22,194 nt of DNA, taken from IMG/VR virus record IMGVR_UViG_3300046318_000442, positions 1 through 22,194 of that record. The stretch is one strand, 5' to 3'. Source of the stretch: a virus. The notes below the pieces were generated by a model, which saw only the letters and a list, made by a program, of their open reading frames with translations, made no database searches and was not told where the DNA came from. Position numbers and translations under genes: made by a program. Below are positions 520 through 20,080 of this stretch, one piece after another (position 1 is the first letter of the stretch; every line of letters begins with the position of its first letter).

Positions 520-1968
520 ATGTCAGAAGAATTAAGAGAATGGAGAGATAAGAACCTAAACTCAGTAAGTAAGAGTTTTTGTGCTGCTAAGTGGTACAAT
601 GCAAGTTTACATTTAGGTCACGGTTTCACAAATTCGTGTCACTTACCCTTACCTCATCCAATCGATTTAGAGGAAATTCAAGATAACCCATCAGCGTTAC
701 ACAACACCAAACATAAAAAGGAGATGCGTAAGATGATGTTGACAGGTAAAAAACCTGCAGAATGTTCTTATTGTTGGAAGATTGAAGATATTGGACGTAA
801 TAATGTTTCTGATAGGGTGTATAAGAGTAGAATTTATAAAGAAGAAGACATTGCCGCGTTGAAAGATATGCCGTATGATGAGGACGTGTTATTAAAAACG
901 GTTGAAGTTAGTTTTGACCGTATTTGTAACTTTGCTTGTTCATATTGTAACTCTGGTTATAGTACTACTTGGGCTAAAGACATTAGTACTAACGGAGCAT
1001 ATCAGAAATTTAAAACAAGTAGTGCTGGAGCATATCACGCAGACGGTTCTTGGGCTGAGAAGTTCGGTAAGTTTGGTGAAAACAACCCTTACGTTAGTGC
1101 TTTCTTGGAATGGTGGCCTGAACTATCAAAAACATTAGAAGAAATTAGAGTAACTGGTGGAGAACCATCCCAAAGTCATAACTTCTGGAATTTTATTGAG
1201 GTATTAAAACAACACCCTTCAGATAAATTAAGATTGGCGGTTAACTCTAACTTAGGTGTAAATGAGAAAACATTAGATAAACTAATCTCAATGTCACACG
1301 AATTACCTATTAAAGAATTTGATTTGTACACAAGTAATGAATCGTTTGGGGTTCACGCAGAATATATTAGAGATGGTTTAAAGTATGAAACTTGGAGATC
1401 TAATATGGTTAAATTTATCGAGAACGCTAAGTTCCGTTCTTTAACCATTATGATGACCATCAATAGTCTTTGTCTTTTCAGTATCACCGAATTTCTTGAC
1501 GATATGTTAGAATTAAAACAAAAATACGGAGCACATAGACCAAATGTAGATTTAAATATTCTAAGATGGCCAGCATTTATGTCACCACTAACATTACCTG
1601 ACGATGTTAAGGAGAAGTTACACTTTAAATTGAAAACTTGGTATGATAAACATAGGGATAGCGAATTATTCAGTATTTCTGAGAAAGCACAATTCGAACG
1701 TTTAATCGATTATATTGAAGTGGTGGAAAGAGGTCATAACACGACAGAGTTAGATAAAGAATTACAATTTCACGACTTTAAAAGTTTCTACACTCAATAC
1801 GATATTCGTAGAAATAAAAACTTTGTTGAAACATTTCCAGAATTAAAAGAATGGTATGAATCGTTAGTGGTTGACCAATCAATTCAAGATGTTAAAGTTA
1901 CCGATGGAAGAATAACACATTTTGAGGCGGGTGAATACGTTTCAGATGTTAAACCTAATTTGATATAA
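520..1968 (+). CDS. Radical SAM protein (twitch-type)
   Basis: This 482-aa protein carries the radical SAM cluster motif CxxxCxxC at C136, C140 and C143 (C-N-F-A-C-S-Y-C), which ligates a [4Fe-4S] cluster that cleaves S-adenosylmethionine. The SAM-contacting GGEP motif lies at 213-216 (V-T-G-G-E-P). An N-terminal extension of about 130 residues holds a further CSYC pair (C82, C85) with C21 and C40, which might bind another metal or cluster. The C-terminal 200 residues lack the seven-Cys SPASM pattern, which fits a shortened 'twitch' style tail. Radical SAM proteins of this general type occur in marine T4-like phages beside glycan genes; the substrate is unknown. No precursor peptide is adjacent. 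The start follows an A-rich spacer, and the stop overlaps the next ATG (TAATG). The family call is firm, the reaction is not. Confidence 0.9.
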   Translation: MSEELREWRDKNLNSVSKSFCAAKWYNASLHLGHGFTNSCHLPLPHPIDLEEIQDNPSALHNTKHKKEMRKMMLTGKKPAECSYCWKIEDIGRNNVSDRVYKSRIYKEEDIAALKDMPYDEDVLLKTVEVSFDRICNFACSYCNSGYSTTWAKDISTNGAYQKFKTSSAGAYHADGSWAEKFGKFGENNPYVSAFLEWWPELSKTLEEIRVTGGEPSQSHNFWNFIEVLKQHPSDKLRLAVNSNLGVNEKTLDKLISMSHELPIKEFDLYTSNESFGVHAEYIRDGLKYETWRSNMVKFIENAKFRSLTIMMTINSLCLFSITEFLDDMLELKQKYGAHRPNVDLNILRWPAFMSPLTLPDDVKEKLHFKLKTWYDKHRDSELFSISEKAQFERLIDYIEVVERGHNTTELDKELQFHDFKSFYTQYDIRRNKNFVETFPELKEWYESLVVDQSIQDVKVTDGRITHFEAGEYVSDVKPNLI

Positions 1969-3242
1969 TGAATTTTTTATTTGAAAATAAAGATAATCTA
2001 ACAAACTTCACAAGTTGTGCTGATATTAATAAGTCGGGAATTGGTAGATTTGGATTCTCACCACTAGTTTCCGCAGCGAACATTTATTACGTTAGAAAAA
2101 ACATTAGAAGTGTTGTTAATTTTCTCCCTTCAACAGAACAAGTTGAAAATTACATCATATCTTGTAGTGTAAATCATAGCCCAGATGATTGGACTGGATA
2201 CGACCCAAGAGTAAAAAGTTTATTTTCTTACCTAAATGAAAAATATCTAACCGACTTAAGAAACCGAAAGGCGTTATTATTGTTGGACCAAAGCTTCGAA
2301 GGATATCAAACACCTTGGTTGTGGGAGTGGTTTCATAATGAATGTAAAGAATATGGAATTTCACCTAAATGTATCGTCTATGTGACAGGTAATATGATTG
2401 TGGAAGATGTTTATGAAAAATGGGCTAACGATAATAACATAACCGAAAGATTATGTACAATCGGTTACCCACACTTCGAACTCGATGTTGCAATGAATTG
2501 TTATGGTAAATCATTTAAAGAAGATCATCTACCAACATTTCAGGAACACATTGATTATAAATCAACACATAATATTAAGACCTTCTCCTGTTTAAATAAA
2601 AGAATAAGACCACACAGAGTATGGTTTTATAATTACTTATTTCATTCGGGTTTACTAGATAAAGGTTTAGTGAGTATGAATGAATTTCAAAAACACGGAT
2701 ATACTTGGGAAGGTCACACAATGGAGATGGACACTGTTGATAGAATAAGTGAGAGACTACCTTTGAGGGTGTATGATATTCGAAATGATGAGTTAGATGA
2801 TAATTTCTACATCAATAGATTTAATCCTGAGATTTGTTTAGATACCTACGTTAGTGTGGTAAGCGAAGCTCATTGTGGTGATAGTGACGAAACTATGTTT
2901 TTAAGTGAAAAGATATTCAAACCTATCGCGTCTAGACATCCATTTATGGTGATGGGAAACAAAGATAGTCTAAAGAAAATGAGAGAGATTGGATATAGAA
3001 CTTTTGATGAGTACATTGACCAATCATACGATGGTCTACCAACTCACCAAAGACTTCAAAAATTGATTGAATCTATTAGAACGATAGATAACATAGAAAA
3101 CAAATTAGAGTGGTTTAAATCAATGGAAAATGACGTGGAACACAATTATAAATTACTAATTGATAGAATTAACGTTTCACCACCGTTAGCGTTTTTAAAA
3201 CTACAACAATATTATAACAACTTCTTTAAAATTATTATTTAA
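1968..3242 (+). CDS. Glycosyltransferase-like protein (paralogue A)
   Basis: This 424-aa protein is paralogous to the one at 4997-6265. Shared blocks include a central FEGY / YEGY with a following V-x-G-N strand, the stretch S-C-L-N-K-R-I-R-P-H-R (paralogue: S-Y-N-R-Q-P-R-I-H-R), and a C-terminal block F-L-S-E-K-I-F-K-P-I followed by H-P-F-M-V-M-G-N-K. The 'sEK-x-x-kP-x-x-x-x-x-Pf-v-x-G' pattern resembles the donor-binding end of GT-B glycosyltransferases such as the GT10 fucosyltransferases. A sugar-transfer role is therefore inferred, supported by neighbouring SGNH, NDP-sugar dehydrogenase and carbamoyltransferase genes. No DxD motif is evident. It starts inside the stop of the radical SAM gene and its own stop overlaps the next ATG, so it is probably translationally coupled. 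Donor and acceptor are unknown. Confidence 0.6.
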   Translation: MNFLFENKDNLTNFTSCADINKSGIGRFGFSPLVSAANIYYVRKNIRSVVNFLPSTEQVENYIISCSVNHSPDDWTGYDPRVKSLFSYLNEKYLTDLRNRKALLLLDQSFEGYQTPWLWEWFHNECKEYGISPKCIVYVTGNMIVEDVYEKWANDNNITERLCTIGYPHFELDVAMNCYGKSFKEDHLPTFQEHIDYKSTHNIKTFSCLNKRIRPHRVWFYNYLFHSGLLDKGLVSMNEFQKHGYTWEGHTMEMDTVDRISERLPLRVYDIRNDELDDNFYINRFNPEICLDTYVSVVSEAHCGDSDETMFLSEKIFKPIASRHPFMVMGNKDSLKKMREIGYRTFDEYIDQSYDGLPTHQRLQKLIESIRTIDNIENKLEWFKSMENDVEHNYKLLIDRINVSPPLAFLKLQQYYNNFFKIII

Positions 3243-4144
3243 TGTATAGACATCAATACAAAGATATTAACATAACTAATGAATCTAAAATTGTAATTGG
3301 TTTAGGTGACAGTTTCACTCAAGGACAGGGTGCCTGTAAAAATGAAATATGGGAAAAATATAATTGGTCATTCGATGAAATGTATAAACAACACGAAACT
3401 CTTGTTGAAGAATACGAAGGGGCTTGGGTTAATCAATTATGTAAAAATCACTTAACCGATTACATACCGGTTAATCTAGGTATGAGGGGTTGTGGAAATA
3501 GGGCAGCAGTTAAAGAATTATATCTACATCCCGATCTTAATTTACATTTGGCAAAAGAAAAAATCGTTATCTATATGTTAAGTGGTATGGAACGTTTTGA
3601 CTTTATAAATAAAGAGTTTAACGACCATCACCATTTTTTCGCTATGTGGCCAAACCCTTGGGATAAGGGTGCAACTAATCTAAAATTATGGGAAGCTTAT
3701 GCTGAAGATATTTGGGATGATAAATTTGGATACATTGAAATGTTATTAAACATTGCTGAGGCACAAACTTGGTGTAAGGCCAATAATGCAAAATTTATCC
3801 TTATTAATGCGTTTAGAAGAGACTACATTAAAGAGATGTATACTCACATTCTAACCAAAGACCACGAAAAAGGATTAATTGATGTAATAGAATGGGACAA
3901 CTACCTATACCCAAAAGGATATAGTTGTATGACTGATTTGTTGGTTCATTTGGAAGATAGAGATGACTTATTAGGTGGAGGTTTTTATGGTTGGGCTATG
4001 GGTCACGATAAACTAACACCGAAAGGGTTATTTACTAAATGTGCACATCCATCTCACGAAGGTCATAGAATAATCGCTGAGACGATATACGATTACATTG
4101 TTAATGGTAAAGAGGGTCATAGAATTAATAAAAGATTAATATAA
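3242..4144 (+). CDS. SGNH/GDSL hydrolase-like protein (first of two)
   Basis: The 300-aa product shows the SGNH hydrolase blocks in order. The GDSF nucleophile motif has Ser24 (G-L-G-D-S-F-T-Q-G). A block II Gly-Asn pair sits near 85-86 (C-G-N-R). The C-terminal His box H-P-S-H-E-G-H is at 269-275, where His272 or His269 would be the catalytic base. Block III is non-canonical (L-S-G-M-E-R), so the usual Asn is not obvious. Members remove or transfer acyl groups on sugars and lipids, and phage examples often act on glycans. The gene lies between two glycosyltransferase-like paralogues and directly before a second SGNH gene, suggesting sugar acylation or deacylation. It ends with the TTAATATAATG seam. 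The fold is probable; activity and substrate are unproven. Confidence 0.72.
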   Translation: MYRHQYKDINITNESKIVIGLGDSFTQGQGACKNEIWEKYNWSFDEMYKQHETLVEEYEGAWVNQLCKNHLTDYIPVNLGMRGCGNRAAVKELYLHPDLNLHLAKEKIVIYMLSGMERFDFINKEFNDHHHFFAMWPNPWDKGATNLKLWEAYAEDIWDDKFGYIEMLLNIAEAQTWCKANNAKFILINAFRRDYIKEMYTHILTKDHEKGLIDVIEWDNYLYPKGYSCMTDLLVHLEDRDDLLGGGFYGWAMGHDKLTPKGLFTKCAHPSHEGHRIIAETIYDYIVNGKEGHRINKRLI

Positions 4145-4146
4145 TG
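4136..4146 (+). repeat. TTAATATAATG gene-seam element, copy 1
   Basis: This exact 11-mer encodes Leu-Ile-stop of the upstream SGNH gene and supplies the ATG of the next. Identical copies stand at 14858 and 18760 and close variants elsewhere; it also contains TATAAT, a bacterial -10 consensus. Its function is unknown. Confidence 0.5.
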
Positions 4147-5052
4147 AAATTAACCCCACCACCTAAATTTGGTAAAATAGTTGACGGGAAATATGTGTGG
4201 AATCAAAGTAAACCATTCCCAAAATATTTCAAAGATGGTATGGAATTTATGCCATTATACCTACCTCACGGAAATCCCGGTAAGTATCAATTTTATATGG
4301 GGGACAACGAGGACTTTTTAAATGAAAATTTAAAAAAATTACCCGAAGATTGGCATTATAGAACCCAACCCGTTGAATACACTTTAAATGATTTAGGTTA
4401 TAGAGGACCTGATTTTGACACTCACGATTGGAAGAATTCAATTGTAGTGTTTGGATGTTCTTGTGTTTTTGGTGTTGGAGTTGACGATAGTGAAACATTA
4501 ACTAGTCAAATATCGAATATAACGGGTAGAAACGTAATCAATGTCGGAATTGGCGGTGGGTCTAATCAGCTTATATTGGACACCAGTTTAATAATGAAAA
4601 GAAAATATGGTAATCCATATTCAATTATAGTAATGTGGACTGGTACCGATAGACTACCATATTATGGTGATAGTGTTATGTATAATGTTGGACTATGGAA
4701 CAATTCACTATATGTGGATAACGAACAACATAGGCATTATAAGAAATTATTTGATAGTTTTTATCAAGAAGCGGGACACGAAAACGTAACATTCTACAAT
4801 ATAGTTCAGGCAATGAGAAATATTTGGGAAGATAAAACAAGATATTTTGAAGGGTCTTTCTTTGAACCGACCGCACATTATGGACAATTACCCGATTATT
4901 TTCCATTTTCAAATACCGCTAGAGATTTACTACATCCCGGACCTAACGATTATAAAAAAACTGCAGAACAACTTGTTGATTACTGCGTAAAAAAATATGG
5001 AAAAGATTATTTGCAGCCTGGAGGATTGGGACTCAATATTAAATTATTATAG
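4144..5052 (+). CDS. SGNH/GDSL hydrolase-like protein (second of two)
   Basis: The 302-aa protein has an N-terminal extension of about 95 residues before a variant SGNH nucleophile block V-F-G-C-S-C-V-F-G-V-G, with Ser106 as candidate nucleophile. A G-I-G-G-G-S-N block follows with Asn141, then a T-G-T-D-R strand, and a C-terminal H-P-G-P-N-D-Y box with His264. The order Ser, Gly, Asn, His fits the SGNH fold although the GDS motif is replaced by GCS, a replacement typical of many phage members. Its immediate neighbour is another SGNH protein with little similarity outside the motifs, so the pair may act on different acyl positions or as partners. The last 56 bases are shared with the next gene in another frame. 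The fold call is probable, substrate unknown. Confidence 0.7.
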   Translation: MKLTPPPKFGKIVDGKYVWNQSKPFPKYFKDGMEFMPLYLPHGNPGKYQFYMGDNEDFLNENLKKLPEDWHYRTQPVEYTLNDLGYRGPDFDTHDWKNSIVVFGCSCVFGVGVDDSETLTSQISNITGRNVINVGIGGGSNQLILDTSLIMKRKYGNPYSIIVMWTGTDRLPYYGDSVMYNVGLWNNSLYVDNEQHRHYKKLFDSFYQEAGHENVTFYNIVQAMRNIWEDKTRYFEGSFFEPTAHYGQLPDYFPFSNTARDLLHPGPNDYKKTAEQLVDYCVKKYGKDYLQPGGLGLNIKLL

Positions 5053-6265: not shown

Positions 6266-6266
6266 A

Positions 6267-10131: not shown

Positions 10132-10243
10132 AAAATTAATTGATTTTATTAAAAATAAAATAGAGAAGAATAAAAAGAAGAAGGAGTTCAAAAAAAGAAT
10201 TGAAGAACTTAAAAAAAGAGACCCCTTCACTTATAACCATTAA
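10124..10243 (+). CDS. Small basic coiled-coil-like protein, 39 aa
   Basis: An ATG inside the last codons of the carbamoyltransferase opens a 39-codon frame that fills the gap up to the next gene. The protein begins M-F-K-K-L-I-D-F-I-K, continues as a Lys/Glu-rich probable helix, and ends D-P-F-T-Y-N-H. Hydrophobic residues at i, i+3/4 spacing in the first half suggest an amphipathic helix, possibly membrane- or partner-binding. The 8-base overlap with the carbamoyltransferase and the 2-base gap to the next ATG support a real, coupled gene rather than chance. Small companion proteins beside carbamoyltransferases are known in bacterial gene clusters, but I cannot match this one to a named family. 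Confidence 0.62.
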   Translation: MFKKLIDFIKNKIEKNKKKKEFKKRIEELKKRDPFTYNH

Positions 10244-10245
10244 TT

Positions 10246-10869: not shown

Positions 10870-10900
10870 TTTTTACTATTTTTTTTTGTATATTAATACA
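10870..10900 (+). promoter_or_regulatory. T-rich spacer, possible weak promoter
   Basis: This is one of the few non-overlapping gaps in the first half of the window. It holds a nine-base T run and then TATATTAATA just before the APS-kinase ATG. No hairpin precedes the T run, so I do not call a terminator; the TATATTAATA is only a loose match to a late-promoter or -10 box. Confidence 0.25.
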
Positions 10901-11344
10901 ATGATTATATGGTTAACAGGTCAACCTGGTTCAGGAAAAACCACATTGGCAAAATGGTTACAAGCATCATACCCTAATAAAGGGGTAATCGTTGATGGAG
11001 ACGATATCAGAGAAATTTTCAACAATAAAGATTACTCCGAAGAAGGTAGACGTAAAAACATCGATTTAGCACAAAAAATTGCCAAATTTTTACACTTAAA
11101 AGGTGATGTTGCAATTGTTTCATTAGTATCCCCGTACAAAGACCAACGAGACGAATTTAAATCCGAAATGGGTAAAGATTTGATTGAGGTGTATGTACAC
11201 ACAACAGATATCAGAGGTAGGGAAAACTTTCACGTTGAAAATTATCAACCCCCTACAGAATTCTTCATCGATATTGACACAACTAACAGACCTGAATTCG
11301 AAACGGTTCAAGAACTTAGATTAAAAATTAAATTATATGAGTAA
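10901..11344 (+). CDS. cysC: Adenylylsulfate (APS) kinase-like P-loop kinase
   Basis: From the ATG at 10901 the protein is 147 aa. An in-frame TTG at 10886 would add five residues, but the family begins with the same W-L-T-G-Q-P-G-S-G-K-T-T block, so the ATG is preferred. Walker A is G-Q-P-G-S-G-K-T-T at 7-15. V-D-G-D-D-I-R at 31-37 corresponds to the APS-kinase DGD-x-R substrate motif, and L-V-S-P-Y-K-D-Q-R at 75-83 to the conserved 'fiSPf..dR' lid region. APS kinase phosphorylates adenylylsulfate to PAPS, the universal sulfate donor. Length is shorter than the usual 170-200 aa, mainly at the C-terminus. The next two genes and the sulfotransferase-like genes downstream fit a sulfation role; a related nucleotide or sugar kinase activity remains possible. 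Confidence 0.82.
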   Translation: MIIWLTGQPGSGKTTLAKWLQASYPNKGVIVDGDDIREIFNNKDYSEEGRRKNIDLAQKIAKFLHLKGDVAIVSLVSPYKDQRDEFKSEMGKDLIEVYVHTTDIRGRENFHVENYQPPTEFFIDIDTTNRPEFETVQELRLKIKLYE

Positions 11345-11717
11345 AAAGTACGCTTTATACGTAGGACGTTGGCAGAATTGGCATAAAGGTCACGAATGGT
11401 TAATTAGTCAACAATTAAACCAAGGTAAAAATGTTTGGGTGGCGATTAGAGACGTTGAGGTTGACGAGAACAATCCAAAGACAGCCCACCAAGTTATGGC
11501 AGAACTAATGAACGAACCATTCTTTATGAATAATTGGGATAAAGTGTTAATATCTATTATTCCCGATATCGAATCAATCAACTACGGACGAGGTGTTGGT
11601 TATGATGTGATTTATCACGAACCTCCATCAGACGTGGCAGTTATTAGCGGTACCGCAATTAGAACTGGACATATGAGTCCTGATGGAACAATAAAATACG
11701 ACCAAACTAAAGGATAA
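11337..11717 (+). CDS. HxGH nucleotidyltransferase (cytidylyl/adenylyltransferase-like)
   Basis: The 126-aa protein has the class I nucleotidyltransferase fold signatures: G-R-W-Q-N-W-H-K-G-H-E at 10-20, containing the HxGH nucleotide-binding motif (H16-K-G-H19), and I-S-G-T-A-I-R at 103-109, the counterpart of ISSTxIR. Such enzymes transfer AMP or CMP from NTP to a phosphate or sulfate acceptor. ATP sulfurylase shares this superfamily and a Q-x-x-N-x-x-H-x-x-H-E arrangement that this motif echoes, but it is about three times longer, so that identity is only a hypothesis. The gene overlaps the APS kinase by 8 bases (ATGAGTAA) and abuts the DUF2061 gene, so the three form one coupled cassette. 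Confidence 0.75.
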   Translation: MSKKYALYVGRWQNWHKGHEWLISQQLNQGKNVWVAIRDVEVDENNPKTAHQVMAELMNEPFFMNNWDKVLISIIPDIESINYGRGVGYDVIYHEPPSDVAVISGTAIRTGHMSPDGTIKYDQTKG

Positions 11718-11938
11718 TGATAGTAGAACGTAGAAGACACATCGCTAAAACAATATCGTATCGAATCATAAGTACCTTAATTGGGTTTGGTTTGATGTGG
11801 TTAATTAGTGGATCGGTTAAAGTAGGTGCGGCCTTCGGGGTTGCTGAGTTGGTATATAAACCAATTCAATATTACCTTCACGAGAGAATATGGTATAAAT
11901 GGATTAAGTATGGTCTAAAAAAAAATAATGGAGAATAA
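11717..11938 (+). CDS. DUF2061 small membrane protein
   Basis: The 73-aa protein starts R-R-R-H-I-A-K-T-I-S-Y-R, has two hydrophobic segments (about 16-31 and 36-48) and ends in Y-Y-L-H-E-R-I-W-Y-K, all hallmarks of the DUF2061 family. In bacteria DUF2061 proteins are found with, or fused to, sulfate-assimilation genes such as cysC and cysN/cysD, which strengthens reading the two preceding genes as sulfur-nucleotide enzymes. Its biochemical function is not established; a two-helix inner-membrane protein is predicted. It shares TAATG with the previous stop, and its end overlaps the next gene by 11 bases. Confidence 0.87.
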   Translation: MIVERRRHIAKTISYRIISTLIGFGLMWLISGSVKVGAAFGVAELVYKPIQYYLHERIWYKWIKYGLKKNNGE

Positions 11939-12404
11939 AAAAATAAACATTATTGAGAATTTCTTATCTAAAGAAGAATGTGATGATATAATAAATAACC
12001 ACAAGAATGGTAAGTCATTGGATTTAACTCACATATCGGAAAAAATTGTCGAAGTGTTAAATGATAATTTTAAATTTAGGGGTTATGAATTGGGTGACTT
12101 AGAACATTTGTTATTTAAAGAGTATACACCTAAAACAAAATACTCATTAAAGTGGAATATAAACAATAACAGTTATTTTACCATAATTGTGCAATTGAAT
12201 GATAATTTCGTTAATGGGTACCATCAATATCTACTTAATGACGATGAGAAATATTTTCAGTCTCCAAAAATAACTGGAAGTTTAGTGTTTTTTTTCTCAA
12301 ATATAAAACATAGGTTATCACCTGTCGAATCTGACTTTAAATACATTTTAGAAACCGAAATTAAATTATTAGAAAGTCCCGAGTTTAAAAAAACATTAAT
12401 ATAA
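11928..12404 (+). CDS. Degenerate 2OG-Fe(II) oxygenase-like protein
   Basis: This 158-aa protein aligns with the following gene: E-N-F-L-S-K-E-E-C versus E-N-F-I-T-D-E-E-C near the N-terminus, I-I-V-Q-L-N-D-N-F versus L-I-I-Q-L-N-D-N-Y in the core. At the position of the neighbour's metal motif W-H-K-D it reads W-N-I-N (76-79), so both His and Asp are Asn. The distal His128 (I-K-H-R) is kept, while the 2-oxoglutarate-binding Arg ten residues later is Lys138. Two of three iron ligands are thus absent and it is unlikely to be a standard dioxygenase. It could serve as a regulatory or scaffolding partner of the intact paralogue next door, or have diverged to another role. Confidence 0.65.
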   Translation: MENKKINIIENFLSKEECDDIINNHKNGKSLDLTHISEKIVEVLNDNFKFRGYELGDLEHLLFKEYTPKTKYSLKWNINNNSYFTIIVQLNDNFVNGYHQYLLNDDEKYFQSPKITGSLVFFFSNIKHRLSPVESDFKYILETEIKLLESPEFKKTLI

Positions 12405-12408
12405 TATG
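12396..12408 (+). repeat. TTAATATAATATG gene-seam element, spaced variant
   Basis: This is the same Leu-Ile-stop seam as at 4136, with two extra bases placing the next ATG after rather than inside the stop. Confidence 0.4.
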
Positions 12409-12978
12409 TTCAATAAATTAATTGAAAATTTTATCACAGATGAAGAATGTGAAATCTTAATTAGTAAAGGGGTGAATCAAGGATTAATGGATATGAAATC
12501 CAGTAAAGTTGTTAATGGGGTTGTTTATAATGAAAATATGACAGACACCAAGAACAATAAAAGGAAAGGTACCTATTTTACTAACAACACATTAATTGAA
12601 CCCGTATTAGATAACCTGTCTAAAAAAATTATTGACACGGTAAACAATCTTAAAATTTTTAACGGAGTTCAGTATGGTGAGATTTCTAAGTACAGTTTTA
12701 ATGAATATTCTGTTGGTGATTTTTTAACTTGGCACAAAGATTCTCACGAAATAATATATGGTGCAACCATCACATTAATAATACAATTAAATGATAATTA
12801 CAATGGTGGTGACATTAAATATAAAATAGATGAGATTGAATATACGGTTCCTAAAAAACGAGGAAGTGTGTTTATATTTGACTCAAATATAAACCATTGT
12901 GTAAGTGAATTAGAAAGTGGTAAACGATATTCGATGAATGTTTGGCCATCAAAGAAAATTAAAATGAGGTTAATATGA
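12406..12978 (+). CDS. 2OG-Fe(II) oxygenase, prolyl-4-hydroxylase-like
   Basis: The 190-aa product carries a complete non-haem iron site: HxD at H110-K-D112, distal His164 (N-I-N-H-C) and Arg174 (G-K-R-Y-S-M-N-V-W) to bind the 2-oxoglutarate carboxylate. Spacing and the following N-V-W strand match the prolyl-hydroxylase-like branch of the cupin-fold dioxygenases. These hydroxylate peptide, nucleic-acid or small-molecule substrates with O2 and 2OG. It lies between a degenerate copy of itself and a flavin-dependent halogenase; the ATG follows the TTAATATAATATG seam and its own end, TTAATATGA, contains the halogenase ATG. Substrate unknown; a hydroxylation step coupled to halogenation is a reasonable inference. 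Confidence 0.83.
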   Translation: MFNKLIENFITDEECEILISKGVNQGLMDMKSSKVVNGVVYNENMTDTKNNKRKGTYFTNNTLIEPVLDNLSKKIIDTVNNLKIFNGVQYGEISKYSFNEYSVGDFLTWHKDSHEIIYGATITLIIQLNDNYNGGDIKYKIDEIEYTVPKKRGSVFIFDSNINHCVSELESGKRYSMNVWPSKKIKMRLI

Positions 12979-14216
12979 AAAACATTGTAATTGTAGGTGG
13001 AGGAACTGCGGGATGGTTGACCGCTTTGGTTGTTAATAAATTCCATAAAAATTGTAACGTAACGTTAATAGAAAGTTCTAAAATTGGAATTTTAGGTGCG
13101 GGAGAAGGTAGTGTACCTAATTTCGGAGCAATGTTAAAGTTGTTAGAAATTAGTAGAGTTGATTTTTTTAATCAAACAAAATCAACAATTAAAAATGGAA
13201 TTACGTTTGTAAATTGGAGAGGTGATGGTAAATCTATGAGTCATTTATTCTCAGGTAAAAACGACTTCATAAATCCCAATATAGGATTTCATTTCGATGC
13301 TAGATTAGTAGCGGAATTCTTTAAAAAAATTGCCGTTGAACGAGGAGTTAAACATATTGACGGTATTATTAAAGATTGTAATTTGGAGGGGGATAACGTT
13401 AAATCAATTATATTAGATGATGAAACAACCATCGATGTTGATTTATTATTTGACTGTAGTGGATTATCTCGACTTATTATTGGTAAGTTTTACCGTGAAA
13501 AGTGGGTTTCATATAACAAATACCTAAAAGTAAATTCTGCCATTGCATATTTTTTACCACAAGAAGACAAACAAACAGTCAACGATAAGACACAAACCAA
13601 TATGGTTTCAATGAAATGTGGTTGGATGTGGCAAGCACCATTACAACATAGATGGGGTTGTGGTTATGTGTATAACGATTCTTACATAAACGAATCGGAG
13701 GCAAAAAAAGAAGTTGAAGAATATCTCGGACGTGAAATTGAAATTGTTAAAAGTTTTAAATATGAAGCGGGATATTATAAGAGAAGTTGGATTGGTAACT
13801 CCATAGCGATTGGATTGGCTTCGACATTTTTAGAACCTTTAGAATCCACATCTTTAATGTCAGTTATTATGCAATTAAAACGATTAATAGACACGGATTT
13901 TGATGAATCACTTAAAGATAATTTTAATGTTTTTTGTGAGGAAATTAATCTTCAAAATATGGTATTTGTTAGGTATCATTATATGTGTGAAAGAAATGAC
14001 ACCAAATTTTGGTCCGACTATAAAAGTGTAGAAGTTCCTGAAAAATTAAAAAAACTCATCAATGATGATGGTAGTATTAAAATAAGTAATAATGTGGAAT
14101 TATATAACGCATTAGAACTTAAAGAAACTAACATTTCACAGTTGACATTTTTCTATAACAATTATTTCACGATACATAAGAAAAACTCTAAAAAATTCGA
14201 ACACAATATCATTTAA
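12975..14216 (+). CDS. Flavin-dependent halogenase (tryptophan halogenase family)
   Basis: The 413-aa protein has the FAD-binding G-G-G-T-A-G-W at 8-14, G-A-G-E-G-S-V-P-N at 41-49, and a Lys73 in S-T-I-K-N-G-I-T-F that aligns with the catalytic lysine of PrnA-type enzymes, which carries the haloamine/hypohalous intermediate. The family signature GWxWxIP appears as G-W-M-W-Q-A-P at 216-222, and F-L-E-P-L-E-S-T-S at 285-293 holds the conserved Glu. These features suggest a working halogenase. It is about 100 residues shorter than the PrnA type, so the substrate lid may be reduced. A flavin-dependent halogenase from cyanophage Syn10 (VirX1) is known to be active and to iodinate varied substrates. 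No flavin reductase gene is present in this window. Overlaps the preceding oxygenase by four bases. Confidence 0.9.
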   Translation: MKNIVIVGGGTAGWLTALVVNKFHKNCNVTLIESSKIGILGAGEGSVPNFGAMLKLLEISRVDFFNQTKSTIKNGITFVNWRGDGKSMSHLFSGKNDFINPNIGFHFDARLVAEFFKKIAVERGVKHIDGIIKDCNLEGDNVKSIILDDETTIDVDLLFDCSGLSRLIIGKFYREKWVSYNKYLKVNSAIAYFLPQEDKQTVNDKTQTNMVSMKCGWMWQAPLQHRWGCGYVYNDSYINESEAKKEVEEYLGREIEIVKSFKYEAGYYKRSWIGNSIAIGLASTFLEPLESTSLMSVIMQLKRLIDTDFDESLKDNFNVFCEEINLQNMVFVRYHYMCERNDTKFWSDYKSVEVPEKLKKLINDDGSIKISNNVELYNALELKETNISQLTFFYNNYFTIHKKNSKKFEHNII

Positions 14217-14227
14217 AAAAATATACA

Positions 14228-14866
14228 ATGGAAAAAATAACATTTAGCGACAGCTCTCACATATATAAAACTAAGTTGAATATGTTGGATTTTAAATCCG
14301 AACTATTGGACATATGTAATAACATAATTAGTAAACAACCTGACGTGAAAACTGACGGTTTTGGTTATAACCACACATCTGGGAATATTAATTTTTTAGG
14401 TGAAGTGGAAATTAATAATGTATTAGATCAGGTTATTCAAAAAGGAATCAATAGTTGTATTGAAATATATAACAACGAATTCGGTGAACATAATATAGTC
14501 GAAACCTCTGGTTGGGTAAACGTGGTAAGAGCTAAAGAACCGGTGCAACCTAATTTTAAAGAAGGTGAAGAAAAATATCACATACACACGGAAATCAGTA
14601 AGCAATTTAATTATTTCATACCAACGTATACGTATGTTTACTATATTCAAATGCCCGATAATCTAAAAGGGGATGATGGGGTTTTGTATTTTAAAGATAA
14701 AAATGATATCGAGTACTCAATACTACCTGAAGAAGACGACTTAATAATAATGTCCGCAGATACACCACACGCACCCAATAAAGCAACTAGTTCAACAAAA
14801 GATAGGATTGTTTTTGCGGGTAATGTTGGGTTGAGGTTCATTAAAAAACAAAAGTCTTTAATATAA
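14228..14866 (+). CDS. Putative 2OG-Fe(II) oxygenase with HxHxE site
   Basis: The 212-aa protein resembles the phage 2OG-Fe(II) oxygenase family in which a Trp strand precedes the metal motif: S-G-W-V-N-V at 94-99, then Y-H-I-H-T-E at 117-122, a Y-Y-I-Q-M-P strand and G-V-L-Y-F. The distal His181 (D-T-P-H-A-P) and Arg193 (K-D-R-I-V-F-A-G-N) follow at the expected spacing. The proximal ligands are either H118-x-H120 or H120-x-E122 rather than the usual HxD, so the metal site is atypical. Its position right after the halogenase makes it a candidate tailoring partner. It begins after an 11-base A/T spacer and ends in the TTAATATAATG seam. Confidence 0.65.
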   Translation: MEKITFSDSSHIYKTKLNMLDFKSELLDICNNIISKQPDVKTDGFGYNHTSGNINFLGEVEINNVLDQVIQKGINSCIEIYNNEFGEHNIVETSGWVNVVRAKEPVQPNFKEGEEKYHIHTEISKQFNYFIPTYTYVYYIQMPDNLKGDDGVLYFKDKNDIEYSILPEEDDLIIMSADTPHAPNKATSSTKDRIVFAGNVGLRFIKKQKSLI

Positions 14867-14868
14867 TG
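14858..14868 (+). repeat. TTAATATAATG gene-seam element, copy 2
   Basis: Exact copy of the 11-mer at 4136, joining an oxygenase-like gene to a sulfotransferase-like gene. Confidence 0.5.
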
Positions 14869-15612
14869 TTAGTAGATAATAAATTCATATACCTAAGTTT
14901 ACCTAGATGTGCATCAACATCTTTTTTGATAACCTGTCTTAGAAATGACATCAGTTTCGATCATTTTGATAAGTTCTATGCGAACTATATGGGAAGTACT
15001 ATCAATTTGAATTTAGATAACGAAAATTTAGCAGATCAATTATTGCACGGACACGAAAAAATAACAGATTTAAAGAGTAAGTTTGGTAATAGTTATCCTG
15101 TTGTTGGTATAAGAAGAAATAGACACGAAAGGTTCTTATCATTATGGAAACATTTAGTCGATTTAACTGCTAATTTACCTCATTTATACCATCCCGATGT
15201 CTCTAAAATATTAAGTGAATTAGATTCTAATGATATTCTTTTTTATAAATCAGAAGATTTGGTTAAGGAAAATAAAGTCGATGTAATAACCAAACTTATT
15301 AAAAGAAGCGGACTTTCCAATTATATTGGTTCTAATAATTACGAACATTTTAGAACAATTGGGTTTATCACGATAAACCCCCTATCTTTTTATCACAATA
15401 ACGACCCAAATATCGTCTGGTTTGATTATAATAACTTGGCTGAATTCGAGTTGTGGGTTTCCAATATCATAGGTAAACCATTTAAATTAGAAAAAAGTAA
15501 CTCAAGTAAGGTTTTCCACACCAAATTAGAGACCTGTCCAAATTTTACAGACAAGTATGATGAAATATACAATTACTTTGATTTACCGAAAGTACAGAAA
15601 TCTTTAATATGA
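14866..15612 (+). CDS. Sulfotransferase-like protein (first)
   Basis: The 248-aa product starts with a beta-strand and a P-loop-like 5'-phosphosulfate-binding motif, F-I-Y-L-S-L-P-R-C-A-S-T-S-F (7-20). This corresponds to the PRxxSTS box of PAPS-dependent sulfotransferases. The 3'-phosphate-binding region is visible as G-I-R-R-N-R-H-E-R-F-L-S-L-W (81-94), with Arg84 and Ser92 at the expected spacing of eight. Such enzymes move sulfate from PAPS to sugar or phenol hydroxyls or amines. The APS-kinase-like gene about 3.5 kb upstream could make its donor. The protein is cytosolic by appearance, with no signal or membrane segment. The next gene's ATG sits inside its TTAATATGA end. Confidence 0.72.
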   Translation: MLVDNKFIYLSLPRCASTSFLITCLRNDISFDHFDKFYANYMGSTINLNLDNENLADQLLHGHEKITDLKSKFGNSYPVVGIRRNRHERFLSLWKHLVDLTANLPHLYHPDVSKILSELDSNDILFYKSEDLVKENKVDVITKLIKRSGLSNYIGSNNYEHFRTIGFITINPLSFYHNNDPNIVWFDYNNLAEFELWVSNIIGKPFKLEKSNSSKVFHTKLETCPNFTDKYDEIYNYFDLPKVQKSLI

Positions 15613-15896
15613 TAGATTTTAAAGAGGTAATTAATTCTTGGATTATTAAGTTTAACCCTACGGACAATGAAAAACAACTGTCAGAAGAAAGATTGACTAT
15701 CTGCCAGAATTGTGTATATTATAGTGAAGTGTTAAAAAAACGGGAATGGTCTGCGGTATGTACCGAATGTAATTGTCCATTGGCAGCCAAGATTTTTACA
15801 CCAAAAACTAATTCTTGTCGAGTTGGATATTGGGAAGAGGTTGACAAAAAATACGGTATTTATATGGACACTAAAACCAATAAAACGATTTTATAA
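15609..15896 (+). CDS. Cys-rich zinc-ribbon-like protein
   Basis: This 95-aa protein has six cysteines: I-C-Q-N-C at 31-35 (C32, C35), V-C-T-E-C-N-C-P-L at 50-58 (C51, C54, C56), and C70 in N-S-C-R-V-G-Y-W. The CxxC...CxxCxC...C pattern fits a zinc ribbon resembling the DUF6171-type proteins that are common in marine phages. A role in metal binding, or as an adaptor for a protein complex, is plausible but unproven. The remainder is basic and hydrophilic. It overlaps the sulfotransferase-like gene by four bases, and its stop codon lies inside the first late-promoter box, so it closes one transcription block. Confidence 0.7.
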   Translation: MIDFKEVINSWIIKFNPTDNEKQLSEERLTICQNCVYYSEVLKKREWSAVCTECNCPLAAKIFTPKTNSCRVGYWEEVDKKYGIYMDTKTNKTIL

Positions 15897-15907
15897 ATAT
15901 TTATAAA
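15890..15907 (+). repeat. 18-bp perfect palindrome TTTATAAATATTTATAAA
   Basis: Perfect inverted repeat formed by two close TATAAATA boxes. It could let a late-promoter sigma factor bind either way, or be a by-product of tandem boxes in A/T-rich DNA. Confidence 0.5.
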
Positions 15908-15909
15908 TA
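15892..15909 (+). promoter_or_regulatory. Tandem T4-type late promoter boxes (TATAAATA x2)
   Basis: Two exact TATAAATA sequences occur at 15892-15899 and 15902-15909, ten bases apart, immediately upstream of the Hint-domain gene (ATG at 15926). TATAAATA is the T4 late-promoter consensus recognised by gp55-type sigma with the gp33 and sliding-clamp co-activators. The second box would place a start roughly ten bases ahead of the ATG. This is the only intergenic exact match I found. Confidence 0.72.
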
Positions 15910-15925
15910 ACATTAATAAGATAAT

Positions 15926-17416
15926 ATGAAAGGAATAATAATAGGTACTGACTTACTTGAACAGGGAGATTCGGTTAAGATTTTGGAAATAAACACAAAC
16001 ACCACAATATACAATTCTGGTGCCGATATGTTGGATTTCAATCCTTTGTTCGACGTGATGATTGAAAACAACATTACTGATTTACATTTTATATGGACTG
16101 AGGGAAATGCTTACACGCCGTTGACTGAAACCTTTAGATTTGAGGAGATTTTAATTCAAAAATGTGAGGAAAACAATATCAATTACCACGCACATAAGGT
16201 ACCTGAAAATTCCGTTACCGTACCGTACATCGAAGATAGTGACGATAAGTTCATTCTAAGACAATCATTTGATACAACCGCCCTTGTTGACGAGTTATAT
16301 TGTGCGGATAAGTTCCAATTTTTCAATTTAATGAAAAATACGGATTTAATCCCTAAAACGTATTTCAGTACAACTGAAATATCGATGGATACCATAGATA
16401 CTGTGAATTACCTTAATGGGGACGAACCTAATTTATTAAAAAAACACAGACTCCCAACATATGATGGTAAAGTGTTACCGTCCTTACATTCAATCCAATC
16501 CGATTCGGACTTATCTACTATGAAAGCGGATACCGCGAATGACCAAAACGTTCTTCTTCAAGAATTCGTTTATGATGAAAAAAATATAGTTGATGGTAGA
16601 TATAACATCATCAGAAGTATTGATATTGTTTTCGGTTCAAATTTGGATGTCATCAATATGGGTGGGTACAAACAATCAACAATAATACCGTTAGATTTTT
16701 CAGAAAACGAATTTATTGAAAATACCAGACAATTAAATCAAAAATCAAGATACAAATACATAACCAAAGCTATCGGTAATTTTGCTAACGTTGATTATCA
16801 CACAGATGACGATAGTAATATATTATCATATGATGGGACACTAAAAGATGTTGATACAATCCAATTGGGTGATTATATTAAATCAATAGATTTTAGAGAC
16901 TTTAATGGTACGGGACCATCTAGTGATAGAAACATTGAGGTCTTTGGTTGGGACGCAACAGTACAACAAACTCAAGATACTTTAGTGGAAGTACAGTCAA
17001 CTTTATCTGGAATGACGTCAGCGGAAGTTGATACGATTTATATTAGAATAACATTATCGAATGGTTTAACTTGGACAGATGCACCGTCTTGTACATATTA
17101 CATAGAAGAAAAAGATTCATTAGCCACTAGATTTGAAAAGGTAAATAAATTATTCGTTGGAGATAAACTGATAATCATAGATAAAGATACTAACCAATTG
17201 AGTACGGTTGAAATTACTGGGTTAGAGATGGAATATGCAAAGAAAACAATTTACGCTTTGGATTTTGAACCATCGGATCTTTTCTTAGTTGACGTTGGTG
17301 ACGGATTATTTGGTATAATGCATAACTCTTGTTGGTGTCCTTGGAATTATTGTGGATACTATTGTAATTCTTGGTATTGCCCATCTTGTGGTGGTGGAGG
17401 ATTTGAAAAAATTTAA
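15926..17416 (+). CDS. ATP-grasp-like / Hint-domain protein with Cys-rich tail
   Basis: The 496-aa product appears to have three parts. Residues 1-280 resemble an ATP-grasp front half: F-I-L-R-Q-S-F-D, D-K-F-Q-F-F-N-L-M-K, I-P-K-T-Y-F, then L-L-K-K-H and L-L-Q-E-F. The usual Mg-binding C-terminal ATP-grasp motif is not seen. Residues 290-467 resemble a Hint (hedgehog/intein) domain: L-S-Y-D-G-T-L...L-G-D-Y-I, a second V-G-D-K-L-I strand, Y-A-L-D-F-E-P, and G-I-M-H-N-S ending at H466-N467-S468. The block A Cys nucleophile and block B His are not found, so self-cleavage is uncertain. The tail (469-496) contains six Cys in 20 residues with many Trp/Tyr, then a Gly run. The preceding tandem late promoter suggests a virion protein. 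Confidence 0.62.
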   Translation: MKGIIIGTDLLEQGDSVKILEINTNTTIYNSGADMLDFNPLFDVMIENNITDLHFIWTEGNAYTPLTETFRFEEILIQKCEENNINYHAHKVPENSVTVPYIEDSDDKFILRQSFDTTALVDELYCADKFQFFNLMKNTDLIPKTYFSTTEISMDTIDTVNYLNGDEPNLLKKHRLPTYDGKVLPSLHSIQSDSDLSTMKADTANDQNVLLQEFVYDEKNIVDGRYNIIRSIDIVFGSNLDVINMGGYKQSTIIPLDFSENEFIENTRQLNQKSRYKYITKAIGNFANVDYHTDDDSNILSYDGTLKDVDTIQLGDYIKSIDFRDFNGTGPSSDRNIEVFGWDATVQQTQDTLVEVQSTLSGMTSAEVDTIYIRITLSNGLTWTDAPSCTYYIEEKDSLATRFEKVNKLFVGDKLIIIDKDTNQLSTVEITGLEMEYAKKTIYALDFEPSDLFLVDVGDGLFGIMHNSCWCPWNYCGYYCNSWYCPSCGGGGFEKI

Positions 17417-17427
17417 TTAAAAATATT

Positions 17428-17565
17428 ATGGCGGTAAAATTAAAAGTTGAAAGACCGATACAGACAATCAAAACTAATGTTAGTCCAGTGTCAAGTGATT
17501 TAAAACTAAAAATGGCGGCAGCAATACAAGGGGTTGTCAATGAAATCAAAACAACTCACTTATAA
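17428..17565 (+). CDS. Small protein, 45 aa, unknown function
   Basis: An ATG 11 bases after the Hint-protein stop opens 45 codons beginning M-A-V-K-L-K-V-E-R-P and ending K-T-T-H-L. It is basic at the start, then has a helical-looking Ala/Ile/Val segment (K-M-A-A-A-I-Q-G-V-V-N-E-I). It fills the interval between the Hint gene and the next oxygenase, and is the only sizeable frame there on the + strand. No family is recognised. It may be a small virion component or chaperone of the Hint protein, given its likely co-transcription from the late promoter. Confidence 0.55.
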   Translation: MAVKLKVERPIQTIKTNVSPVSSDLKLKMAAAIQGVVNEIKTTHL

Positions 17566-17590
17566 TATAGAGAGTTAAAATTTTGACGTT

Positions 17591-18127
17591 ATGGACTATA
17601 GTGTAAACACATACTTCACAAACGAAGAATGTTTGTGGATTTTAGACTATTGTATGAATAACGGAGAAATATTCTTTTACGACCCTAAAGAAACTTGGGA
17701 TTGTCGTAGGGTTTACGATGAGTCATTTAAAGAAGACGTATTAAATAAATTCATTACAAACCACCAACCAAATAACCATTGGAACATTCCACAAAACTTC
17801 AACGTAAATGAAGTTAATATCAGTCTAACTAGATATTATGATGGTAGATTTCTAAATTTACATAGAGACACATCGTCTCAATACACAACTGTTATTGTTT
17901 TAACGGATGAATTTGAGGACGGTAGATTTGTAATTTCAAACACACCAGGTAAAGAAATTACGGATTTAGGTGAACATTCCGAAAAGATAAAATTGAATCG
18001 TGGGGAGGGAATTTCATTTGATGGGTCCAAAACTTATCACGGAGTTATGCCCGTATATAGTGGGATTAGATGTGCATTAAACATTTGGATACCAAACTCA
18101 CTAAAAAAGAATAAAACAATAATATGA
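17591..18127 (+). CDS. 2OG-Fe(II) oxygenase, prolyl-4-hydroxylase-like
   Basis: The 178-aa protein has an intact dioxygenase site: H91-R-D93 in L-N-L-H-R-D-T, distal His150 in T-Y-H-G-V, and Arg160 in G-I-R-C-A-L-N-I-W. The order, the ten-residue gap from His to Arg and the final N-I-W strand are the same as in the oxygenase at 12406, so the two belong to one branch. The N-terminus F-T-N-E-E-C also matches the start of that protein. It would hydroxylate an unknown target with O2 and 2-oxoglutarate. The gene follows a 25-base spacer with GAGAG 15 bases ahead of its ATG, and its end, ATAATATGA, contains the start of the next gene. Confidence 0.82.
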   Translation: MDYSVNTYFTNEECLWILDYCMNNGEIFFYDPKETWDCRRVYDESFKEDVLNKFITNHQPNNHWNIPQNFNVNEVNISLTRYYDGRFLNLHRDTSSQYTTVIVLTDEFEDGRFVISNTPGKEITDLGEHSEKIKLNRGEGISFDGSKTYHGVMPVYSGIRCALNIWIPNSLKKNKTII

Positions 18128-18768
18128 GGGTTGCAATATTAACATCTGCGAGAAGCGGATCAACTAGTTTATATCATTTATTTGAAGAACATCTTTATAA
18201 AACATACACCTGTGTGTCCGAACCATTCAATAATTATTGGAGGGATAAAATAGGTTTACCAACATACGATACCGATTTTTTTGAGGGTAAGGATAATATT
18301 CTTATAAAAACCTTTGTTAGTGAAAATCAGAAACCAAAAAGTATGATGGAAGATGAGGAAGGATTTTGGAAATGGTTTTTTGGTTACTTTGATAAAGTCA
18401 TATTATTAAACAGATTAGATAAAGATTTACAAAGTGAAAGTTTAACTTATCATATGAAAGCCGATGACATTCATAGTTGGCAAAAGAGACAATTTTACGA
18501 TTTATCTAACATCACAAAAGAAGAACTCGAAAACAGTAAAAATACGTTATTAAAGGAATCTGAAATGTTATATAATTTTTCTAAAATGGGGCATCCAATA
18601 TATCATTTTGAAGATATTTTTGTAAAGAAAGATAAATCCGTTATTGAGGAAATGTTTAGATATGTAGGTATCGAACTAAAAACCCCTATATATGAAAAAT
18701 TTGTTGGTACAGATCTATACCGGGTGAGAATCGGTAGTGGAGAAAAAAGATTTAATGGTTTAATATAA
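18124..18768 (+). CDS. Sulfotransferase-like protein (second)
   Basis: The 214-aa product begins M-R-V-A-I-L-T-S-A-R-S-G-S-T-S-L, in which S-A-R-S-G-S-T-S (8-15) matches the PAPS 5'-phosphosulfate loop of sulfotransferases. A second strand K-V-I-L-L-N-R-L-D-K-D-L-Q-S-E-S (91-106) resembles the 3'-phosphate-binding region, with Arg97 and Ser104 or Ser106. The C-terminal Y-H-F-E-D-I-F strand with V-K-K-D is compatible with the fold. It differs clearly from the sulfotransferase-like protein at 14866, so the two may act on different acceptors. Coupled upstream to an oxygenase and downstream to an unknown gene by the TTAATATAATG seam. Actual sulfate transfer is inferred. Confidence 0.75.
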   Translation: MRVAILTSARSGSTSLYHLFEEHLYKTYTCVSEPFNNYWRDKIGLPTYDTDFFEGKDNILIKTFVSENQKPKSMMEDEEGFWKWFFGYFDKVILLNRLDKDLQSESLTYHMKADDIHSWQKRQFYDLSNITKEELENSKNTLLKESEMLYNFSKMGHPIYHFEDIFVKKDKSVIEEMFRYVGIELKTPIYEKFVGTDLYRVRIGSGEKRFNGLI

Positions 18769-18770
18769 TG
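18760..18770 (+). repeat. TTAATATAATG gene-seam element, copy 3
   Basis: Exact third copy of the 11-mer, giving Gly-Leu-Ile-stop and the ATG of the next gene. Confidence 0.5.
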
Positions 18771-19466
18771 CCATCTAAAAATAATAGAATAATACAATCA
18801 ATCGAAAAGGTTTTGGGTCCACATTCAAATCCATACACTTATAATTTTATTAATAATAATAAAACTTACTTAAAGAATCACACATTACCCTCTCAATTAA
18901 ATACAATTGGTAATTATGTACATCTTTTGGGTAATAATAATTATTCCTGTTTAAATAACATTACTGCCGAGTTGTTATATAACACCTACATAGAATATAT
19001 TCAAGATTTTAAATTAAAATATAACAATACCGACTATGTCGAACATAATAAAATAATTTTAGATGAGAGAATTGATGGTGTTGGGTTTTATTGGGTTGAT
19101 TTAGAAAATGAATTCTGCGTTGAATCAATGGTCAGAATGGAAGATTGTGGTAGGGTTAATTATGGTAACACCACTTTAGAATTAAGGGAACAAAACGAAA
19201 CAAATAATGTGTCCCATATGATTTTAGTATATGAGGTAAAATCCAAAAATATTAAACAAATAAAAGGTAAACAAAACACTAAACCAAAGTCTGATTATTG
19301 GATTTACCTATTTAAATTATTAACAGAATCTGAATATATTTTTAACCAATATGTCCCAACATATAAACCAGAAAACGACCTATTAATTTCAGAGTTTTCC
19401 GATAGTCTACAATCAGCTATTTATAATAAACACCCAAACTTAAAAAAATCTAATAACTTAATGTAA
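18768..19466 (+). CDS. Protein of unknown function, 232 aa
   Basis: I do not recognise this protein. It is Asn- and Lys-rich, with clusters such as N-F-I-N-N-N-K and L-L-G-N-N-N-Y, and it appears soluble. A central region contains G-V-G-F-Y-W-V-D and M-E-D-C-G-R-V-N-Y-G-N-T-T-L-E-L-R-E-Q, alternating in the manner of beta-strands, then a basic loop (K-I-K-Q-I-K-G-K-Q-N-T-K, approximate) and a helical C-terminus. No catalytic triad, P-loop or metal motif is obvious. It sits between a sulfotransferase-like gene and a methyltransferase gene, overlapping both ends by one base, so it is expressed with them and may be a partner or a structural protein near the tail module. Confidence 0.7.
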   Translation: MPSKNNRIIQSIEKVLGPHSNPYTYNFINNNKTYLKNHTLPSQLNTIGNYVHLLGNNNYSCLNNITAELLYNTYIEYIQDFKLKYNNTDYVEHNKIILDERIDGVGFYWVDLENEFCVESMVRMEDCGRVNYGNTTLELREQNETNNVSHMILVYEVKSKNIKQIKGKQNTKPKSDYWIYLFKLLTESEYIFNQYVPTYKPENDLLISEFSDSLQSAIYNKHPNLKKSNNLM

Positions 19467-20080
19467 TGGACGGAAAAGAAGAGTTAATAATTACTGACGA
19501 ATACATATATACCCCAAATAATAATCATTACGTTATGCACGTTTGTGAAACATCTATGATGAAAAAACAGGCGGAAATTGCAACATCAAATGGAGGAGAT
19601 ATTTTAGAAATCGGTTTTGGGATGCATATTTCTGCGGATTTCATAACCTCAAATCCAAATGTTACGTCATATACCGTAATTGAAATTCACCCAGAACAAT
19701 ATGAAAGGGCTTTAGAGTGGGCAAAAACCAAAACAATCCCAATAAACGTGATATTAGGTGATTGGTATGATGTTTTACCATTATTGGATAAGAAATTTGA
19801 TGGTGTATTTTTTGATAGTGATACCGATAAACACGGTATTGTACATTTTTTAGATAAAATTGAGGATAACTGTAAAAATGGAACAATTGTAACGTTTTAC
19901 GCTTACTATAAATACGACACAAGACTAACACCTGTAGTTATTCCTTATACAAAAGAGGAATTTGATTCACAACCTAACGAATGGAAAAGGGTTAAGTTCT
20001 TTTCTGGAGGTTCATCCACCATATATTATACGAAATATGATGGTGAGAAGTTCTATAGTGACCATCAAAAACTTATATAG
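19466..20080 (+). CDS. SAM methyltransferase, guanidinoacetate-methyltransferase-like
   Basis: The 204-aa class I methyltransferase has motif I as I-L-E-I-G-F-G-M-H-I-S (46-56), the acidic strand V-I-E-I-H-P-E (71-77), a G-D-W turn at 98-100 and F-D-G-V-F-F-D at 111-117. The upstream V-M-H-V-C-E-T-S-M-M-K and the F-D-G-x-x-x-D block strongly recall guanidinoacetate N-methyltransferase and the related arginine methyltransferase RMT2, where V-M-x-x-W-E and F-D-G-I-x-x-D are typical. The Trp of that first motif is Val-Cys here. It is therefore an N-methyltransferase candidate acting on a guanidino or amine group. It ends the gene block before the tail fibre; its last codons are Leu-Ile-stop. Confidence 0.8.
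   Translation: MDGKEELIITDEYIYTPNNNHYVMHVCETSMMKKQAEIATSNGGDILEIGFGMHISADFITSNPNVTSYTVIEIHPEQYERALEWAKTKTIPINVILGDWYDVLPLLDKKFDGVFFDSDTDKHGIVHFLDKIEDNCKNGTIVTFYAYYKYDTRLTPVVIPYTKEEFDSQPNEWKRVKFFSGGSSTIYYTKYDGEKFYSDHQKLI

Follow-up and report, generated by a model that had tools for sequence, protein, structure and literature searches.

Several described systems each come close in one respect to what we report here. Encapsulin cargo-loading peptides, type 1 peroxisomal targeting signals (PTS1) and PDZ ligands are short linear motifs at the C-terminus of unrelated enzymes. In the biosynthesis of ribosomally synthesized and post-translationally modified peptides (RiPPs) a ribosomal peptide is tailored by enzymes, and A-type bacterial intein-like (BIL) domains have a Hint fold with a terminal His-Asn and no fixed +1 nucleophile. 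Flavobacterium johnsoniae initiates translation in a Kozak-like manner free of Shine-Dalgarno (SD) sites, with A at positions -3 and -6 of the start (PMC6847099). We studied a 22,194-nucleotide stretch of viral DNA (IMG/VR record IMGVR_UViG_3300046318_000442, hereafter the window), a fragment in which a cluster of auxiliary enzyme genes adjoins a tail-fibre-like gene. Its subject is the recurrent 11-mer TTAATATAATG at the seams between genes and the Leu-Ile C-termini that it encodes. These ends are almost certainly a shared protein-level tag in particular gene families and not a feature of the junctions. The tag resembles the encapsulin, PTS1 and PDZ signals by analogy, its motif being a different one. 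The likeness to RiPP biosynthesis is also one of analogy: a Cys/Trp/Tyr-rich ribosomal peptide, the end of an untagged protein that we call the hub, lies beside radical SAM, halogenase, oxygenase and sulfotransferase-like genes, but here the common element is found on the enzymes and the system is known from genes alone. No such tag turned up in the literature we searched, and a search for a phage system of the Hint, ATP-grasp or RiPP-like kind returned nothing relevant.

With respect to translation the window's group does resemble the Bacteroidota. Both the group and the T4-like Flavobacterium phage immuto (NC_055915.1, L169-L172) lack SD sites, are A-rich from -14 to -10 and are enriched in A at -3 and -6; SD-like starts amount to 2-7% in the window's relatives compared to 54% in the HTVC008M part. 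The long relative G002 (179 kb) carries a T4-type terminase (TerL) which is 54% identical to that of immuto. A Bacteroidota host is therefore likely, given SD-less, A-rich starts as measured in Flavobacterium together with the immuto-like terminase. Initiation of this type accounts only for the choice of codons at the junctions and not for the Leu-Ile tails. Immuto, the one named Flavobacterium phage examined, does not have the tag, and its glycosyltransferase cluster is without the hub as well.

A string search bore out the three exact copies of TTAATATAATG that the initial annotation had listed and found no other site in the window. All three are stop-start overlaps (coordinates here and below refer to the plus strand): at 4136-4146 the element holds the stop of an SGNH-like protein ending in NKRLI, at 14858-14868 that of a 2-oxoglutarate/Fe (2OG-Fe) oxygenase-like protein ending in QKSLI and at 18760-18770 that of a 214-residue protein ending in FNGLI, in each case together with the start of the following gene. 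The variant forms were also as described. TTGATATAATG at 1960-1970 ends a radical SAM protein (KPNLI; NF033640 match), TTAATATAATATG at 12396-12408 ends a protein with KKTLI and is followed by the next ATG 1 nt on, and TTAATGTAATG at 19458-19468 ends a 232-residue protein (SNNLM). TTAATATGA forms a -4 overlap twice, at 12970-12978 behind a 2OG-Fe oxygenase (KMRLI; PF13640 match) and at 15604-15612 behind a sulfotransferase-like protein (QKSLI), as does ATAATATGA at 18119-18127 (NKTII). Dinucleotide shuffles gave an expectation of 0.13 copies of TTAATATAATG against the 3 observed, and 0/100 shuffles reached 3. The window holds 25 complete proteins, the 45-residue product of 17428-17565 among them. 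Leu-Ile closes 8 of these and a pair of Leu/Ile residues closes 15, exactly as counted before. When codons were shuffled within genes (5000 trials) the mean number of Leu-Ile ends was 0.19 with a maximum of 3, the mean number of two-Leu/Ile ends was 0.72 with a maximum of 5, and 0.009 junction copies of the 11-mer were expected. Redrawing synonymous codons with the amino acids fixed still yielded 0.81 of the three 11-mers (P=0.025), so that what is surprising resides mainly in how the proteins end and to a lesser degree in the choice of codons.

To place these ends in context we collected ~210 relative loci, all of them fragments, with several different genes as queries. Genes were called with a simple caller of our own, for which stops are robust and starts less certain, and tails were deduplicated by 70% clusters plus tail. 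Scans aimed at cellular Bacteroidota homologues yielded nothing or one Pelagibacteraceae contig, and the comparison set consists of phage loci. The gene families of the auxiliary cluster divide roughly in half, into those that mostly end in two aliphatic residues and those that almost never do: the proportion of hydrophobic-hydrophobic ends is below 10% in 20 of 52 families and at least 90% in 13 of 52. The same bimodality was observed in new loci fetched with two tagged families (2,431 genes from SD-less loci, none of them analysed before), where 15 families were low and 13 high, of 40. If a family is called tagged by its own ends (at least 60%), the new loci contain 17 tagged families and 17 untagged ones with 0/223 Leu-Ile ends; the bimodal histogram, the upstream residues and the codon result described below are independent of this definition. 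The consensus tail is approximately K-x-x-K-[T/S]-L-I-COOH, with L, I, F and M tolerated at the last two places. Across 408 distinct new tails the enrichment was +2.7 bits for K at -7, +2.8 for K at -4, +2.5/+2.0 for T/S at -3, +3.1 for L at -2 and +3.0 for I at -1, and the residue at -3 was T or S in 61% of them. Alignments of three unrelated families (the 95-residue Cys protein, an oxygenase and the sulfotransferase-like enzyme) have K-x-x-K-[T/S]-L-[I/L/F] in common, preceded by linkers that have diverged. A general preference of phages for hydrophobic C-termini was rejected, as SD-using relatives showed 0/238 Leu-Ile ends.

Another indication that the tag belongs to the protein comes from genes of tagged families that have no ATG within 20 nt. 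Of their tails, 62/63 retain two hydrophobic end residues, and Leu-Ile was found 28 times compared to only 3 times for Ile-Leu; together with the codon shuffle this dependence on residue order excludes A/T bias as the source. The Ile codons of these junction-free tails (ATT 27, ATA 20, ATC 2) are like those of gene interiors, whereas at -1 junctions Ile is written as ATA in 47/54 cases. The amino acids are thus fixed at the protein level and the codons at the DNA level. Before TAATG the codons used for Leu-Ile are TTA ATA, in line with the absence of SD sites from the group and its preference for A at -3 and -6, and TTAATATAATG is the tag, a stop-start overlap and the start context combined.

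These observations bear on the readings at the level of DNA. As TTAATATAATG supplies an A at both -6 and -3 of the following start, we first took Leu-Ile for a by-product of SD-free initiation, merely encoded by the context of the next start; the initial annotation had suggested a re-initiation site in place of SD. Part of this stands: SD sites are absent, and the start context influences which codons the tail uses (at -1 junctions a final A is found in the last and the penultimate codon at rates of 0.74 and 0.79 in tagged and 0.57 and 0.56 in untagged genes, compared to 0.38 inside genes). As the cause of the Leu-Ile residues, however, the idea was dropped after controls within the same genomes, in immuto and in junction-free genes, which keep Leu-Ile with freely varying synonymous codons. 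At -1 junctions Leu-Ile occurred in 16/48 cases inside the cluster and 1/87 outside, with cluster limits set by eye after the positions had been seen; at -4 junctions the counts were 13/56 and 2/68. The version centred on the hub is cleaner, with a tag at 38/88 coupled junctions near the hub and 17/185 far from it (p=3e-10). Immuto has equal start signals and 1/217 Leu-Ile ends. We regard re-initiation as largely refuted and very improbable as the origin of Leu-Ile; it stands only for codon choice. The refuting test that the initial annotation set for itself also went against it: homologues finish in Leu-Ile or in a pair of aliphatic residues irrespective of the junction. A hidden -10 promoter is unlikely in view of its position, as transcription would begin inside the following gene, and of the synonymous drift of the tails where no gene follows. 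Recombination at the 11-mer, acting as a short homology seam for the exchange of cassettes and carrying Leu-Ile along, would fit the variable gene order and the recurrence of the tails in unrelated genes. Yet the DNA of the tails differs (TTA/TTG/CTN followed by ATA/ATT/ATC), the motif extends to K at -4 and -7, tails are equally frequent in junction-free genes and the exact 11-mer is scarce even among close relatives (0-3 per contig). The tail also keeps to its gene while the downstream neighbours change: in one oxygenase family 268/274 members are tagged across 20 different downstream families. The probability that we assign to such a seam is close to nil.

The gene around which the tags gather is the hub candidate at 15926-17416. 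It is untagged and encodes an N-terminal domain, a Hint-fold domain and a Cys/Trp/Tyr-rich peptide (model confidence, as the predicted local distance difference test (pLDDT), 86.8). Residues 290-467 (16793-17326) adopt a Hint/intein fold with a VIA-align Z of 16 to inteins, hedgehog and BIL structures (16.1 to BIL 2lwy), although Pfam did not recognise this first Hint domain. The domain ends in His-Asn (H466-N467), which is invariant in 54 sequences, and the residue at +1 is variable (S, G, T, A, P and others). Residue 1 of inteins aligns with His292, so the Cys/Ser nucleophile is missing at this position and only C-terminal cleavage is expected. For the same reason the domain is filed as a Hint-fold domain and not as a member of the BIL family, from which it also differs in the fusion to an N-terminal domain and a Cys-rich peptide. 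The peptide behind His-Asn, SCWCPWNYCGYYCNSWYCPSCGGGGFEKI (17327-17413), is mostly of low confidence in the model; across relatives it measures 23-60 residues and is rich in Cys, Trp, Tyr and Gly (20% Cys, 8% Trp). In some phages a further domain follows the peptide, either another Hint domain (L189, L230) or, as a weak match (E 0.02), one that is S74-like (L302). Such an arrangement would allow excision at both ends of the peptide and suggests that its fate is to be released. L099 is a further locus with the Hint protein and its Cys/Trp/Tyr-rich end. The N-terminal domain had no Pfam match and no convincing PDB sequence match, and the fold searches were dominated by the Hint domain; judged by eye it may be ATP-grasp-like. 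Directly 3' of the hub, 17428-17565 encodes a conserved, untagged protein of 45 residues that ends in KTTHL, occurs in 52/58 tag-rich loci and has no family match. In tblastn searches of named phages there was no match for the hub, the 95-residue protein, one oxygenase family, one radical SAM family or the glycosyltransferase-like (GT-like) family, and plasmids gave no match for the hub.

We propose that the tag acts as a docking signal which would gather oxygenases, halogenase, sulfotransferase, radical SAM enzyme and methyltransferase on one shared partner. The likeliest candidate for this role is the Hint-domain protein at 15926-17416 or the complex to which it belongs. The docked enzymes would modify the Cys/Trp/Tyr-rich peptide at the end of the hub, before or after Hint cleavage, and the Hint domain would release the peptide by cleaving after His-Asn. 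From the pattern of the sequences we lean towards a docking function of some kind; that the tag docks to this particular hub is a tentative suggestion. The whole, a modular peptide- or glycopeptide-tailoring system of uncultivated phages probably of Bacteroidota, in which a common tag recruits enzymes to a hub with its own, Hint-released substrate, is conceivable but doubtful. The distribution of tags is consistent with a link to the hub. The share of tagged genes falls with distance from the hub from 47% (<5 kb) to 22% (5-10 kb), 10%, 9%, 4% and 4% (>80 kb), and beyond 40 kb it is 4%. Loci fetched by the carbamoyltransferase have a tag fraction of 0.38 with the hub and 0.16 without it (p=5e-6). 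In three hub-bearing contigs with 25-43% SD-like starts, a small sample, members of tagged families were tagged in 10/12 cases and other genes in 3/42, and the hub-tag system thus seems to cross initiation types. L186 and L242, with 27-43% SD-like starts, carry both hub and tag. In a presence ranking over 58 tag-rich loci the untagged hub family came first (58/58), a figure which is in part local synteny, as the loci were fetched by genes near the hub. The contribution of synteny weighs against docking to the hub, as do several other points: loci without a detected hub still show 16% tag-like tails, though fragments may hide a hub; we detected no genome-specific dialect of the tag (z <= 1.2), although one might have arisen had the tag co-evolved with a single reader; and a peptide is not necessarily the substrate of the SGNH-like and GT-like tagged families.

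The main rival is that the tail is a C-terminal degron, with auxiliary enzymes made briefly and then cleared by a protease, of the host or of the phage, that recognises exposed Leu-Ile ends. In Mycoplasma a hydrophobic C-terminus reduces both the level and the stability of a protein, and such ends are depleted across bacteria generally (PMC7246954), a general trend opposite to that of the tagged families. Furthermore the tail looks exposed in one enzyme model: in the sulfotransferase-like enzyme, the one tagged enzyme modelled, the last eight residues have a pLDDT <50 while the body is well folded, so the tag is probably unstructured. A degron alone leaves K at -4 and -7 and T/S at -3 unexplained, and also why tailoring enzymes near the hub are tagged when precursor makers in the same cluster are not; we consider it unlikely. 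The tail might instead be a docking or localisation signal that is read by the host, through a PDZ-like protein, say, or a membrane or secretion factor. Class I PDZ ligands have T/S at -3 and a hydrophobic last residue, as do most of the new tails, and a PDZ reader would probably be the host's, as a search with the PDZ_2 model (PF13180) of 11 phage genomes gave no match while 14/14 controls matched. Tag density, however, peaks at the hub gene and tracks its presence, and immuto, another phage of a Bacteroidota host, is without the tag, which makes a host reader an improbable explanation. Two known C-terminal signals do not fit the tail. The sorting domain of type IX secretion comprises ~80 folded residues and had no NCBIfam match in nine window proteins, compared to a tail of ~8 low-confidence residues in one tagged enzyme; an ssrA/ClpX degron of the LAA type does not agree with the T/S-L-I consensus of the 408 tails, in which Ala is not enriched at -1 to -3 and counts 0 at -3.

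A shared tag on unrelated phage enzymes would point to a common reader and would give a simple rule for tracing the proteins of a so far undescribed pathway through viral dark matter. If docking is true, enzymes would be assembled by plug-in, seven added residues being enough to join, and one would expect a class of phage peptides, not described before, that are heavily modified and release themselves. The clustering of tags around a self-processing protein with a cysteine-rich peptide suggests that enzymes are brought together on one partner in a manner that has not been described.

The tagged enzyme families comprise several 2OG-Fe oxygenases, the Trp halogenase, the sulfotransferase-like enzyme, radical SAM, a methyltransferase and one epimerase; further tagged families are DUF6734, a GDSL-like family, the 95-residue Cys protein and several unknown families. 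In the window the Trp halogenase-like flavoenzyme at 12975-14216 (tail EHNII; PF04820, E 1.6e-89) belongs to a family tagged in 79/82 cases. It is followed by the 2OG-Fe oxygenase-like protein of a tagged family at 14228-14866 (KKQKSLI) and by the sulfotransferase-like enzyme at 14866-15612 (PKVQKSLI), whose tail is disordered in the model and whose match to solved sulfotransferases is weak. The 95-residue Cys protein at 15609-15896 (KTNKTIL) comes from a family tagged in 118/124 cases. A 178-residue protein at 17591-18127 (KKNKTII) is tagged by sequence alone, and a 204-residue protein at 19466-20080 (HQKLI) is a member of a tagged family. Untagged in the same clusters are the carbamoyltransferase, UDP-glucose dehydrogenase, APS kinase, nucleotidyltransferase, DUF2061 and the Hint protein, and the first four of these look like precursor makers.

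The halogenase-like protein is kin of PrnA and of the viral VirX1, and the neighbouring peptide is Trp-rich. Genes for an APS kinase, a nucleotidyltransferase-like protein and a DUF2061 protein are consecutive at 10886-11938 and possibly provide sulfate activation for the sulfotransferase-like enzymes. The interval 20139-22194 is occupied by a tail-fibre-like open reading frame with many SGSSQVLSGTG repeats that continues past the end of the window.

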